Shown here piece by piece: positions 50,824 through 55,463 of a stretch of DNA of 64,000 nt. The notes beneath the pieces were generated by a model. The model was not told where the DNA came from and did not search any database. It saw only the letters and a list, made by a program, of their open reading frames with translations. The stretch is from [Clostridium] asparagiforme DSM 15981. GTDB taxonomy: Bacteria; Bacillota; Clostridia; Lachnospirales; Lachnospiraceae. The stretch lies in assembly GCA_025149125.1 (NCBI GenBank), contig CP102272.1:4402001-4466000 (forward strand), read 5' to 3'. Both the position numbers and the translations under genes were made by a program. How positions within the stretch are numbered: the stretch's first letter is position 1; each line of letters starts with the position of its first letter.

Positions 50824-52113
50824 TTACTGAATAGTATCATTTTTTCGGCTACTTTGCAACACCATATCCAAAAGTTCTGACAGCGGCTCCATGGCGTTTC
50901 TGGCCTCCTCGTAGGTGTTGGTCTGCGCTCCCACTTCGACCAGCGCGGAGCGGGGGCGCAGGTGGAGGTTGTAGCGCAGTCCCTTCAAATAAATCTTGCG
51001 CGTAAATCCCGGATAATATGCCTGGGCGTCCAGCTGCATCTGAAAGCTGAAGGCCAGATTCTGCTCCCGGTAAGGGTTTTGCAGGTACTCGATGGGCCCC
51101 TCCGGCGTCTGGCTCATGCCGTTGAAAAACATGATCTGCGCGGTTGGTTTTCCGTCCACATCCGTCACCAGATGAAGGCTCTCCCCCACGCCGTCCCGGT
51201 GGATGTCCAGCACCACCTGCACCGACGGATTTTCCTCCAGAATCTTGCTGATCCCATCGTACGCATATGTATAAGCCTTGCTGCGGTCCAGCTTCCCGTC
51301 CACCAGGTCGTACACCGAGGTGTCGTGGATCACGTTGTACCCCTTTGCCGTCAAAAGCTCGGTCAGATAATTTCCGATCCCCACCACGGTCTCCCCCGGC
51401 CCGGAGTCCTTAAACGCCTCCTGGGAGTGGGTGTGGTAGATCAGAATCTGGGGTTTGCTGTTGTCCTCCCCGATGGAGAGATCCTCGCCCAGAAGCCGCG
51501 CCGCGCTTATCTCATCCCGCCCCGCCGTGGTGGAGGTGTGAACGCTGTAAAAATGCTTCATCAGAAAATCGTAGTCCGCCAGCTGCTCCATCACATAGGT
51601 AGGCCCGGTCACCGCACGCGAGGTAACCCCCACCAACGCCGCACCCGCAGGCACGGCTCCCGCGCCCGTCTCCCCCTGGGCCAGCGCCTGCGCCCCGCCC
51701 GCGCTCTGGTCCGTTCCGCTGTCTCCCGTCTGACCGGCCGTTGTTTCGCCGTTTTGTGTTTCGCCGTTCTCCGCCTTAGTTTCCCCCGTTTCCTCGTTGC
51801 CATACCAGGCCAGGTACTGGTGTTCCTCGTAAAATGTTTTCACCGCCTCATACTGCCGGTAGGCCGGATCCGGATCGCCGGTCTCCCATCCGTCTCCGGT
51901 CCGCCCACCCGTTCCGCCGCTCCCCGGCCGGGCCTGATGCCACACATAGTCCACCAGCCACCGGCCGCCGGTTTCCACAGCGCGCCGGCAGGCGTCCCGG
52001 TCCAGATTCTCCGCCGCCGTCCCGGCAGCCCGACCTGCCAGCAAAAGGACCAGAATCAGCCCGGTACCGGCCGCAAACCACCGGATACCTCCCGCCAGAC
52101 CTCTTCTCCTCAC
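50824..52113 (-). CDS. spoIIP: Stage II sporulation protein P
   Basis: SpoIIP is the amidase/endopeptidase of the DMP machine that drives forespore engulfment. The 429-residue protein has an N-terminal helix (~13-32), a Gly/Glu/Thr-rich low-complexity linker (~75-165), and the amidase domain (~225-425) with LIYHTHSQEAF, DIHRDGVGE and ALVEVGAQTNTYEEA, which hold the metal His/Glu residues. The start is GTG at 52111-52113 with GTGAGG ahead. gpr, the usual upstream neighbour in clostridia, is not present; repeat elements lie there instead. Confidence 0.93.
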   Translation of the reverse strand: MRRRGLAGGIRWFAAGTGLILVLLLAGRAAGTAAENLDRDACRRAVETGGRWLVDYVWHQARPGSGGTGGRTGDGWETGDPDPAYRQYEAVKTFYEEHQYLAWYGNEETGETKAENGETQNGETTAGQTGDSGTDQSAGGAQALAQGETGAGAVPAGAALVGVTSRAVTGPTYVMEQLADYDFLMKHFYSVHTSTTAGRDEISAARLLGEDLSIGEDNSKPQILIYHTHSQEAFKDSGPGETVVGIGNYLTELLTAKGYNVIHDTSVYDLVDGKLDRSKAYTYAYDGISKILEENPSVQVVLDIHRDGVGESLHLVTDVDGKPTAQIMFFNGMSQTPEGPIEYLQNPYREQNLAFSFQMQLDAQAYYPGFTRKIYLKGLRYNLHLRPRSALVEVGAQTNTYEEARNAMEPLSELLDMVLQSSRKNDTIQ

Positions 52114-52207: not shown

Positions 52208-52464
52208 GGATGCATCCGTTCGTGAGAGGCGGGAGAACAGGGTGGGCGGTTCCAAGCTCCGCGGTAGGAGAGTCTAAGGCCCAAGGGGACGGGAAAGACG
52301 GGCACCGCTCCGAGCTCCGGCGCCGGCCTGATGCCGGCCCCTCCGCCTACGCTTTGCTCCGGGCTTTGAGAGCCCTGCGCAATCCCGCCTTTCCCGCCCC
52401 CTTGGACCTAAGACTCTCCAAACCGCTCCACAGTCACCTCCCCCCCTGTTCCCCCGCCTCTCAC
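52208..52464. repeat. Large hairpin element A (~245 bp)
   Basis: The segment 52222-52464 folds back on itself. Outer arms GTGAGAGGCGGG (52222-52233) and CCCGCCTCTCAC (52453-52464) pair exactly, and the inner GGAGAGTC (52267-52274) pairs with GACTCTCC (52412-52419). A near-identical copy in opposite orientation lies at 52754-53010. No open reading frame looks real. It lies between spoIIP and the terminator of the microcompartment operon. Confidence 0.85.
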
Positions 52465-52575
52465 CCACTACGCGTTCTCTTTTTTCTCCGCTTGATTTCC
52501 CATGTTTTGGGAGGGATGACGCCAGCTTAAGATAGTACCTATGATGGCGGCATGTTATTTCTTATTATAATAGGG

Positions 52576-52636
52576 AGTAAAAAGTTCCTGGACAGGGCTG
52601 CCTCATTACCAGCAGCCCTGTCCAGGAACTTTTGAA
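52576..52636 (-). terminator. Perfect 21-bp hairpin, terminator of the microcompartment operon
   Basis: A perfect 21-bp stem (52581-52601 with 52612-52632; 10-nt loop) is followed on the minus strand by TTTTTAC. It lies about 370 bp after the alcohol dehydrogenase stop, so element B would be in the operon's 3' untranslated region. It is nearly midway between elements A and B. Confidence 0.85.
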
Positions 52637-52753
52637 AGGAATGTTTTATCAACTTATGGTCGGAACGTAGTACGGATACAGCCCAAATCCCAGCGGCTCC
52701 ATTTCCGTCACCCCAGGGGAGGAAGTTGAGGGAGTGTTTTCGATCCCTAGCGG

Positions 52754-53010
52754 GTGAGAGTCAGGGGAGCGGGGGGTGGGGTGACTGTGGAGCGGTTCGC
52801 AGCGTCTTAGGCGGAATCGGCGCGAAAAGGTGGGATTGCGCAGGGCTTACAAAGCCCGGAGCAAAGCGGAGGCGGAGGGGCCGGCATAAGGCCGGCGCCG
52901 GAGCTCGGAGCGGTGCCCGCCTTTTCGGGGCGATTGCGCCTTAGACGCTGCCACCGCAAAGCCCTGGAACCCCAGCCCCCGCTCCCCTGACTCTCACGAA
53001 CGGATGCATC
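52754..53010. repeat. Large hairpin element B (~245 bp), inverted copy of A
   Basis: Outer arms GTGAGAGTCAGGGG (52754-52767) and CCCCTGACTCTCAC (52984-52997) pair exactly, and the inner GCAGCGTC (52799-52806) pairs with GACGCTGC (52944-52951). An apical ~90 nt is almost identical to that of element A, while the stems differ in paired fashion. It begins right at the stop of the alcohol dehydrogenase gene. Confidence 0.85.
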
Positions 53011-54184
53011 AAATCCCTCCCCTCCAAGCCTCCCCATAAACCTCTATCACCTGCTCCCTGTCAGCCCGTACAAGGTTATCCCCCATACAAAAATCCTTCA
53101 CCGCCAAATCCGCCAAATCCCCGAATTTCTCCGGATCCACCCCCTTAAGCTCCTTCAGCGTCTGAGGCATCCCTAAAGATTTCGACAAGCCGCGGATATA
53201 GTTCACACACACCTCTGCCGCCTGTCTGTCCGCCATTTTTGCCGCACCCGGTAGTTCAAGCGCCTCCGCCATCAGCTGAAAGCGCCCGGAAGCGTTGGGC
53301 GACTTACCGTTGAACTTCATCCCGTAAGGCAATAACACGCTGTTGCAGATCCCGTGGGGCAGGTTGAAATGTCCGCCCAGGGCATGGGCCATGGCGTGCA
53401 CGATCCCCAGGCCCGCGTTGGAAAAAGCCATGCCCGCCGTGTACTCGGCGTAAGCCATCATCTCTCTGGCCTTCACGTCCTGCCCGTCCTTCACTGCGGC
53501 GGGCAGATAATCCTTGATCACGCGGATCGCCCACATGGCGTCCTTGTCCGTCAACGGAGTGGCCCGCACGGACAACAGGGCCTCGACGGCGTGGGTCATG
53601 GCGTCCATACCCGTGGAGGCCGTCAGCCCCGGCGGCATGGTCATCATAAAGTCCACGTCGTTGATTGCGATGCTCACCATACAGTTGGTGTCCATGATGC
53701 ACATCTTGGAGTGGGTGGCCGGGTTGGTCACAATGTAGAAGGACGTCACCTCCGAGCCGGTGCCCGCCGTGGTGTTCACCGCCACAATGGGAAGCCCCGG
53801 CCTGGCGGACAGATTCACGCCCTCGTAGTCCTCCACCCTGCCGCCGTTGGCGATGACGATGCTCACCGCTTTGGCCGTGTCGATGGCCGAACCGCCGCCC
53901 ACCGCCACCAGGAAATCCACCTCCAGAGCCTTGGCCGCCTGGATGCAGTCATTCACCACCTGGATGGTAGGGTTTGGCTGGACCAAATAGAAAACGGCGT
54001 ACTCCGCCCCCGCCGCCAATATCTGCTCTCCCACCCGGTCCGCCGCCTGGTGCTCAAACAGAAACCGGTCCGTCACAATCAGTCCTCTGCGGTAGCCGCG
54101 CTTTTTCAGCTCGCCCGGCAGCAGCCCGATGGAGCCTTTTCCGAAAAAGCTGGTGGTCACCGCATTTATTCTCTCTCTGCCCAT
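53009..54184 (-). CDS. Iron-containing alcohol dehydrogenase (lactaldehyde reductase type) of the microcompartment
   Basis: This 391-residue group III (FucO/PduQ-like) dehydrogenase would reduce lactaldehyde to 1,2-propanediol and recycle NAD+ inside the compartment. The NAD site GGGSAIDTAK (~97-106), NTTAGTGSEVT (~138-148), and the metal-binding pattern GMDAMTHAVE and HAMAHALGGHFNLPHG (His/Asp ligands) are all intact. It is the last gene of the operon and has no obvious targeting extension. Confidence 0.9.
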   Translation of the reverse strand: MGRERINAVTTSFFGKGSIGLLPGELKKRGYRRGLIVTDRFLFEHQAADRVGEQILAAGAEYAVFYLVQPNPTIQVVNDCIQAAKALEVDFLVAVGGGSAIDTAKAVSIVIANGGRVEDYEGVNLSARPGLPIVAVNTTAGTGSEVTSFYIVTNPATHSKMCIMDTNCMVSIAINDVDFMMTMPPGLTASTGMDAMTHAVEALLSVRATPLTDKDAMWAIRVIKDYLPAAVKDGQDVKAREMMAYAEYTAGMAFSNAGLGIVHAMAHALGGHFNLPHGICNSVLLPYGMKFNGKSPNASGRFQLMAEALELPGAAKMADRQAAEVCVNYIRGLSKSLGMPQTLKELKGVDPEKFGDLADLAVKDFCMGDNLVRADREQVIEVYGEAWRGGI

Positions 54185-54223
54185 ATCATTTCCTTCTCTC
54201 CTGCTTCAGACATGATTTCAACC

Positions 54224-54484
54224 TTATTTGCCCAGCTGGGGCGGGGCATCCACAATCCCCACCACATAGGCGTCCACCGGGGCCGAGCGGTCCAGCGCAT
54301 GCTGGGTGGTCTCGTCCGTGGTTACCAGCACCAGCTCGCCGATGCCTGCGCCGATGGTGTCGGCCGCAACGAACAGCTGGGCCTTATCCCCGAAGTAGGG
54401 TTCCACCAGCAGCAGCTTAAACCCTACCAGATTCCGGCATTTCCGGGTCGACACCACCGTGCCGCGAATTGTTCCCAAAATCAT
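54224..54484 (-). CDS. Microcompartment vertex protein (EutN/CcmL pentamer)
   Basis: This 86-residue BMC-P protein forms pentamers that close the shell vertices. It has the family start MILGTIRGTVVSTRK, LLLVEP, and a C-terminal VDAYVVGIVD strand. GGAGG precedes the ATG, which overlaps the PduL stop (ATGA). This is the only vertex protein in the locus, and one is enough to close a shell. Confidence 0.92.
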   Translation of the reverse strand: MILGTIRGTVVSTRKCRNLVGFKLLLVEPYFGDKAQLFVAADTIGAGIGELVLVTTDETTQHALDRSAPVDAYVVGIVDAPPQLGK

Positions 54485-55137
54485 CTGGTTCCCTCCTTTA
54501 CCAACTCCAGCAGCTGGCCCTGTTTGAGCCGGAACGCGTTGGCGTCGTCCGTGTCCACGTGAAAATCCAGCCGTCCCTTTTCGGACACCCGGATCACCAC
54601 CTGGCCCATGAGGCCGCCTCTGGGGCCGCCCACCCGGACCGATACCCGCTCCCCGTCCTCCACGCCGAACCATCCCGCGTCCTCCGGCGTCATGTGGATA
54701 TGGCGGTCCGCGATTATGAGACCTGCGCTCAGTTCCAGAACGCCCACCGGTCCCTTAACCGTAATACCCGGCGTGCCAGACAGCTGCCCCGAGGTGCGCA
54801 CGGGCGCGTCGATCCCCAGCTTCAGACAGTCCGTTCCCGACAGCTCCACCTGGCTGGCCGGGCGCTCCGGGCCCAGCACCCGCACCCTGGCGATGGAGCT
54901 TCTGGGACCAACTAACTCCACCTGCTCCTCACAGGCGAACTGGCCCGGCTGGCTTAACGGCTTCATGGGCGTCAGCCGGTGTCCCGGGCCAAACAGCGCC
55001 TCCACATCCTCCCGGGTCAGATGGATGTGGCGGGCCGATATGCCCACCGGCACCCGATAATATCCCCCGGCAAACTCCCGGACCTGGGCGGCTACCAGCT
55101 CTGCGACACGGGCCGCCATATTCTCTCTATCCCACAT
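54481..55137 (-). CDS. pduL: Microcompartment phosphotransacylase PduL
   Basis: PduL converts acyl-CoA and phosphate to acyl-phosphate, here presumably lactyl-CoA to lactyl-phosphate, recovering CoA in the shell and later ATP. The 218-residue protein has the zinc motifs GISARHIHLT (~33-42) and ADRHIHMTPEDA (~142-153), with FHVDTDDANA near the C-terminus. Residues ~5-25 form an amphipathic helix that looks like an encapsulation peptide. ATGA overlap couples it with the vertex protein. Confidence 0.93.
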   Translation of the reverse strand: MWDRENMAARVAELVAAQVREFAGGYYRVPVGISARHIHLTREDVEALFGPGHRLTPMKPLSQPGQFACEEQVELVGPRSSIARVRVLGPERPASQVELSGTDCLKLGIDAPVRTSGQLSGTPGITVKGPVGVLELSAGLIIADRHIHMTPEDAGWFGVEDGERVSVRVGGPRGGLMGQVVIRVSEKGRLDFHVDTDDANAFRLKQGQLLELVKEGTR

Positions 55138-55166
55138 TTAAATCGCTCCGTTCTTTTGCGCCCGGC

Positions 55167-55463
55167 TTATTTTAAAAAGGGCAGAATTGCACCCACGGAT
55201 CCGTGCGGTCTGGGGATCACGTGTACCGCCACCAGCTCGCCGATTCTGGAAGCGGACTCCTGCCCGGCCTCCACTGCGGCCTTCACTGCGCCCACATCGC
55301 CCTGCACCATCACGGTCACCAGGCCGGAACCGATCTTCTCCGTGCCCACCAGCTCCACGTCCGCCGCCTTCAGCATGGCATCCGCCGCCTCGATGGACGC
55401 GGTCAACCCTCTCGTCTCGATCATTCCCAGCGCCAACATTCCTCTTTTAATTCCCTCTGCCAT
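55167..55463 (-). CDS. Microcompartment shell hexamer protein (PduA/CcmK type)
   Basis: This 98-residue BMC-H protein has [29 protein letters not shown] and the pore-region [24 protein letters not shown]. It ends in AVHVIPRPH. It overlaps the preceding shell gene by 17 bp and is nearly identical in the core to the gene at 56018, a recent duplication by appearance. Confidence 0.94.

Follow-up and report, generated by a model that had tools for sequence, protein, structure and literature searches.

Two large hairpins (A and B), which lie in inverted orientation within the 64,000-nt stretch of [Clostridium] asparagiforme DSM 15981 DNA analyzed here (the window), are probably the termini of a mobile, non-autonomous DNA element recognized as folded single strands. 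This reading is proposed because one strand keeps its shape at either end of an inverted unit whose copies disperse. A mobile non-coding element was among the readings offered in the initial annotation of this DNA, and it is supported by many copies in relatives together with a fold under selection. The hairpin family, which belongs to Lachnospiraceae, is apparently undescribed so far; no description of it was found in the open-access full-text literature (PMC, i.e. excluding subscription papers and preprints).

A and B are inverted partners at the two edges of a unit of 802 bp (Table 1). The two large inverted hairpins located by the initial annotation are both present, and so are the paired stem differences that it described between them and the mismatch kept in the inner stem inside TAAG/TAAG (A 52276 opposite A 52410 in A; T 52808 opposite T 52942 on the + strand in B). 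The point missed in that first reading is that A and B constitute two inverted ends of one unit. Its inverted arms of 215 nt match at 83%, and A (+ strand) and B (- strand) are 82% identical. When the window was scanned for inverted repeats with arms no shorter than 25 nt and no more than 1500 nt apart, four pairs emerged, all four within the unit. Folded as RNA, A reaches -150 kcal/mol (z -10.2) and B -156.6 kcal/mol (z -11.1), and for each of them none of 200 shuffles was as stable. The outer end of B partly supplies the stop codon of the dehydrogenase gene, namely with the last two repeat bases (53009-53010). Adjoining the unit, positions 53009-55463 harbor a microcompartment-type cluster of Fe-alcohol dehydrogenase, phosphate propanoyltransferase, and BMC shell protein. 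Plasmids and phages searched with the window unit gave no DNA match.

Table 1. Features of the unit and its neighboring genes (positions in the window).
Feature	Position	Strand	Remarks
Whole unit (structured ends in inverted orientation flanking a middle of 277 nt)	52209..53010	.	Perfect 20-bp inverted ends
Left terminal inverted repeat, GATGCATCCGTTCGTGAGAG	52209..52228	+	
Right terminal inverted repeat	52991..53010	-	Same 20 bases as left
Hairpin element A	52217..52470	- (likely folding strand)	3' end at left edge of unit; covariance model 262.9 bits, reading sense +
Hairpin element B	52748..53002	+ (likely folding strand)	3' end at right edge of unit; covariance model 251.9 bits, reading sense -
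A arms	Outer 52222-52250/52436-52464; inner 52267-52302/52384-52419		
B arms	Outer 52754-52782/52969-52997; inner 52799-52834/52916-52951		
A apex	52303..52383	-	Three-way junction, two hairpins, loop CTGAT in reading sense
B apex	52835..52915	+	Three-way junction
Middle hairpin, 22 bp, perfect	52580-52601/52612-52633	.	Possibly a bidirectional terminator; not shared with other pairs
SpoIIP gene	50824..52113	-	PF07454, E 2.7e-56; gene start 95 nt from unit
Iron-containing alcohol dehydrogenase gene, microcompartment-type cluster	53009..54184	-	PF00465/PF25137; ends in outer end of B

The members of the family show a common architecture, in which a terminal stem is followed by an internal loop, a second stem, and an apex consisting of a three-way junction with two hairpins, one of them closed by a loop like CTGAT, TTGAT, or TGAA. 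This plan is constant from 26% to about 71% element G+C, the low-G+C elements (26-32%) being built like those of about 71%; CTAAG/CTAAG occurs in the second stem of many subfamilies and is absent from the low-G+C ones. What is conserved is the fold, while the letters vary freely, and the covariation is overwhelming. In alignment A2 (19 copies, aligned with MAFFT from sequence only) 96.4% of cells are paired, with double-sided changes at 57 of 88 pairs; none of 500 shuffles reaches any of five measures, and sliding the partners by 1-3 columns leaves 40.8-49.9% paired. Alignment A5 (52 rows, 50 distinct, from 12 genomes), which was fitted to the structure model and so leans towards that structure, is paired in 93.7% of cells and has double changes at 87 of 88 pairs. 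Its slid controls reach at most 52.0%, and 12 of 500 shuffles reached one measure, that of further pair types. Selection for a fold, which the initial annotation had deduced from the two copies, is thereby borne out by covariation across many copies.

The strand that folds was addressed by means of a reading sense, defined as the strand starting with CGTYCGTGAG. In this sense, A-C mismatches occupy 18 columns (29 cells) of the A2 helix positions, against 3 columns (3 cells) for G-T. The loop-closing pair 155-159 and two further pairs, 2-260 and 3-259, are left out of this count; if all three are restored, 31 A-C stand against 23 G-T cells, so that the contrast comes from the stems proper. When entire arms are counted together with their conserved mismatches, 68 copies from 13 genomes hold 192 A-C and 72 G-T, with A-C more frequent in 11 genomes and equal in 2. 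The complement of the reading sense gives the more stable fold in 65 of the 68 copies. Fifteen copies outside both covariance models show 26 A-C versus 9 G-T, and the complement is more stable in 12 of them; in all these strand statistics, related copies count as separate though they are not independent. Because of the A-C excess in the reading sense and the stabler fold of its complement, the complement is the likely folding strand, whose 3' end faces outward at both ends of a pair. As judged from the sequence, the folded single strand could be DNA or RNA alike.

The paired changes might also be mutational in origin, arising when one arm is copied from the other by gene conversion or template switching, instead of reflecting selection for a fold. 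The double changes, mostly from Watson-Crick to Watson-Crick with few intermediates, would suit such an origin, but mismatches and internal loops are fixed in place across subfamilies, and copying from arm to arm would erase them. Since, moreover, the A-C intermediates are strand-biased (18 columns versus 3) and the small apical hairpins covary too, a mutational origin is considered very improbable.

With regard to the adjoining genes, an ORF heuristic applied to 37 copies assigned co-oriented left neighbors to 23 and divergent ones to 14, with SpoIIP, the neighbor of A, counted among the latter. The co-oriented genes end 6-76 nt ahead of the element in 22 of 23 cases, and 11 of the 14 divergent ones start 89-156 nt away. 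This location, reminiscent of that described for REP repeats (PMC3733652), would agree with an mRNA 3' element that terminates or stabilizes the transcript of the neighboring gene, as the initial annotation had suggested for stabilization. On the co-transcribed strand, however, A-C mismatches exceed G-T, and this strand is the less stable one in the 65 of 68 copies and the 12 of 15 further copies. A 3' element is therefore not the simplest reading and appears improbable, as the wobble-tolerant, better-folding strand is complementary to the gene usually found next to the element.

Within the genome of DSM 15981, BLASTN detects 11 places, A and B included, where the copy is either full-length or lacks one internal segment. 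Two covariance models, R1 (19 copies) and the broader R2 (52 rows), raise this number to 30 places, each matched by at least one of the models at E<=0.001 (22 by R1, 8 more by R2); two-strand matches count as one place, partial copies and deletion derivatives are included, and one match of E 0.14 is left out. Members of the genus were positive by R1 in 6 of 17 genomes, DSM 15981 included, and 11 had no match. At least 8 of 397 genomes and at least 7 of 334 genera were positive in the family search with R1, and at least 7 of 392 genomes and at least 5 of 174 genera in the order search with R2, all of the latter Lachnospiraceae and DSM 15981 included in both searches, which together reveal members in at least 10 further genera of Lachnospiraceae; since five candidates were scored per genome, these counts are lower bounds. 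A pattern scan identified as carriers [Clostridium] clostridioforme AGR2157, Clostridium sp. 1001271st1 H5, Hungatella hathewayi DSM 13479, H. effluvii DSM 24995, and a Clostridia bin; Enterocloster clostridioformis and Hungatella belong to Lachnospiraceae. The covariance-model search of relatives that had been proposed at the outset thus yielded many further copies with covarying stems, and the opposite outcome, no more copies and no covariation beyond A and B, clearly failed to appear.

Among 37 copies measured, 32 are 210-303 nt long, one has 409 nt with an insertion, and four are shortened to 61-136 nt. Three derivatives of 61-86 nt in the genome of DSM 15981 (L055, L014, and L149 at 5845706, 1914617, and 3209540) retain the terminal stem and have lost the apex. 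Family-type outer ends are combined with a quite different apex at L162, L148, and L156, as would result from a swap of apex and stem modules. At L142 (G008:C104:298161), the hairpin contains a run of N with arm sequence repeated on either side, perhaps from palindrome assembly failure or masking, and draft genomes may in this way undercount the family.

No match to Rfam 15 at the gathering score was obtained in the window and 13 further loci. At E<=1, 16 other loci gave sub-threshold matches to long-hairpin microRNA models, a few other weak matches, and one true tRNA outside the hairpin. A multicopy structured RNA family with a cellular role (regulatory or protein-binding), its RNA arising from the complement strand and running outward from the pair middle, would account for the internal loops and three-way junction kept over the whole range of element G+C (26% to about 71%) and for the wobble bias towards one strand. 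However, Rfam gave no match at its gathering score, no conserved promoter was seen by eye in the flanks, and the copy number, the subfamilies per genome, the 11 of 17 genus genomes without a match, and the patterns of presence and absence fit a mobile element better, so that such an RNA family is rather unlikely; a functional RNA gene is not proven by covariation alone.

The arrangement in pairs recurs throughout the family. Counted by hand with R2 (better-scoring strand per place, weak overlapping match L144 left out), 95 loci contain 28 pairs of neighboring elements, all 28 in the same inverted geometry and with gaps of 122-769 nt. In the genome of DSM 15981, a further two copies (2539034 and 2541336), co-oriented and separated by about 2 kb, lie beyond the counted pair range. 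Fifty copies are listed as single: 43 have no partner hairpin within 1.3 kb, and 7 have another long-armed hairpin within this distance, always on the predicted side and never on the opposite one, although the hairpin at L077 resembles an AT-rich repeat rather than a family member and L081 is readable for 356 nt only. Partners may be of one type, like A and B (81% identity in this comparison), or of two types, and share 32-83% identity, the low values being partly due to shortened copies. In the low-G+C genome G709, pair and middle form one unit at five loci; the model matches lie 636-1076 nt apart, the middle is either short or long, and two of these units are 97.3% identical over 1124 nt. 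Their ends are AAATTCCGGTTTGT..GAGG-type inverted repeats, decayed in some; among the units of the family, the end sequences include GATGCATCCGTTCGTGAG.. and AAATTCCGGTTTGT..GAGG. Terminal inverted repeats are perfect over 20 bp in the window, imperfect in the five G709 units, and weak or absent in most of the other 22 pairs.

In Enterocloster-type and other non-G709 genomes, most pair middles lack homology from one locus to the next, and therefore it may be a single end that moves in these genomes; for Enterocloster-type genomes, the 43 of 50 single copies without a partner likewise suggest that the pair may not move as a whole. Nine pair middles examined contain no transposase gene and no convincing coding gene (longest frame 123 codons between stops), and a coding gene in the middle was rejected on this basis. 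The perfect hairpin noted earlier midway between A and B is real and comprises 22 bp, but it is no general feature of pairs. Scanned for terminators under a strict definition, which also misses the window's own hairpin, the 28 pair middles gave a site in one, and a terminator between partners was, by this definition, rejected as a rule.

Copies sit at unrelated loci, and species differ in whether a given copy is present. In the genome of DSM 15981, two hairpins separated by 10 kb are 97.6% identical, with flanks unrelated beyond the nearest bases. The hairpin body is better conserved than the ~70 nt outside it, which could mean gene conversion rather than transposition. A full copy in genome G002 (C24) corresponds to a remnant in the orthologous gap of G005 (gene end 95% identical) and to none in that of G015. 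Copies in G015 are lacking from the orthologous gaps of G002, G005, and G013 in one case (C33) and of G013 in another (C44); a copy in G002 (C18) is lacking from the gap of G015, and two G008 copies are absent from G012, a genome without any match. Clean empty sites sought at orthologous gaps were not obtained, the evidence there being presence or absence only. Inspection by eye revealed no consistent target-site duplication in five G709 copies or in orthologous gaps, the latter being too diverged to define one.

Some of the hairpins are themselves interrupted. An element of ~160 bp with ends GGGCGTGTTTGAAAATT or variants is inserted in three of them, L088 (G013), L140 (G008), and L158 (DSM 15981, near 3103310). 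These three differ in subfamily and species, and all are interrupted at one shared model position (the match resumes at 58), at or beside the TA of CTAAG. The element also occurs at another CTA in a hairpin (L015) and outside any recognized hairpin (L080); it may prefer these hairpins, around which the loci had been fetched. The apical motif ACTCGC..GCTCAGACA of one subfamily (G008-type copies) is likewise present in contigs of a viral collection (L166-L174). These nine matches, of mixed context and in part hairpin-rich, look unrelated and were rejected as family members.

For the non-autonomous element favored here, the following process is proposed. As a single strand, each end of ~250 nt would fold into a rod made of the terminal stem, the conserved internal loop, and the second stem with its kept mismatch, capped by the three-way junction bearing two small hairpins. 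An enzyme supplied in trans would recognize these folded single-strand ends, cut beside them, and move the pair or one end, and insertions would persist mainly in the spaces that follow gene 3' ends. A lone end would represent a remnant or an end moved independently. REP and IS200/IS605 transposases recognize far smaller folded hairpins as single strands, those at IS200/IS605-type ends being about ten times smaller than the Lachnospiraceae hairpin ends.

Tentatively, the family might even constitute a new class of transposable elements in Lachnospiraceae, having three-way-junction rods of ~250 nt as ends on the outward 3' strands and a mover that reads the shape of single-stranded DNA or RNA. 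If this holds true, the ends could diverge in their letters (26% to about 71% G+C) and form heterotypic pairs. With this family, palindromic mobile repeats, mostly known as short or simple hairpins, are extended to a class as elaborate as a structured RNA, which covaries very strongly and is found in bacteria related to Enterocloster and Hungatella. The two covariance models provide a searchable family for seeking the enzyme that would move such shape-defined ends.

Among known systems, REPs are described as simple stems of 20-40 bp (Di Nocera 2013, PMC3733652). Those of the GTAG/CGTC superfamilies are extragenic palindromes forming inverted dimers of equal or unequal partners near gene 3' ends; REP ends sometimes supply a stop codon, the CGTC class is without known transposase, and the paper mentions neither Clostridium nor Firmicutes (PMC3733652). 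Inverted dimers (between genes, as in REPINs; all 28 close pairs), a position next to gene 3' ends, and overlap with a stop codon are shared with the Lachnospiraceae hairpins. Membership in the REP/REPIN class and mobilization by RAYT (Y1) transposases could explain these dimers of like or unlike partners, and in the genus the folding strand mostly starts with GTAG or CAG and its complement with CGTC or CGTT. Such GTAG/CGTC end tags occur in many Enterocloster-type copies, yet are absent from Hungatella and other subfamilies, and with ~250 nt, internal loops, and a three-way junction the hairpins are, by published size and description, several times larger than a 20-40 bp palindrome. Some Y1 transposase is encoded in 12 of 13 positive genomes searched; DSM 15981, in which none was found, is the exception. 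Of 58 matches listed in the 12 genomes, 20 Y1 loci were read with flanks of up to ~1.5 kb, and none carries an element by R1 or R2, let alone a RAYT/Y1 gene flanked by repeats. A Y1 transposase was rejected as the mobilizer on these grounds, and membership in the REP/REPIN class is distinctly improbable. The transposase of IS200/IS605-type elements recognizes subterminal secondary structures on single-stranded DNA (PMC6006769), but the Lachnospiraceae ends are mutually inverted, and the genome of DSM 15981 lacks a Y1 gene.

ERIC (127-140 bp) and Bcr1 (147-167 bp) sequences (PMC2267715), of which the bcr repeats may be transcribed (PMC3446304), are similarly intergenic, multicopy, self-folding, and MITE-like; as far as their published size and description go, they are shorter, occur in other taxa, and have no three-way junction described. 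The MRSC-65-2 motif, a mobile or repeat candidate from diverse phyla (PMC11109978), resembles the family in its long stem, strong covariation, and many copies per genome. Its published description as a single stem with UYCCGG repeats sets it apart from the three-way-junction rod. As regards MITEs, the terminal inverted repeats are perfect in the window unit but weak or absent in most pairs other than this unit and those of G709, and the nine middles examined are free of transposase genes. The closest known kinds are the REP/REPIN, ERIC, and MITE palindromes, compared with which the hairpins of Lachnospiraceae are larger and more complex.
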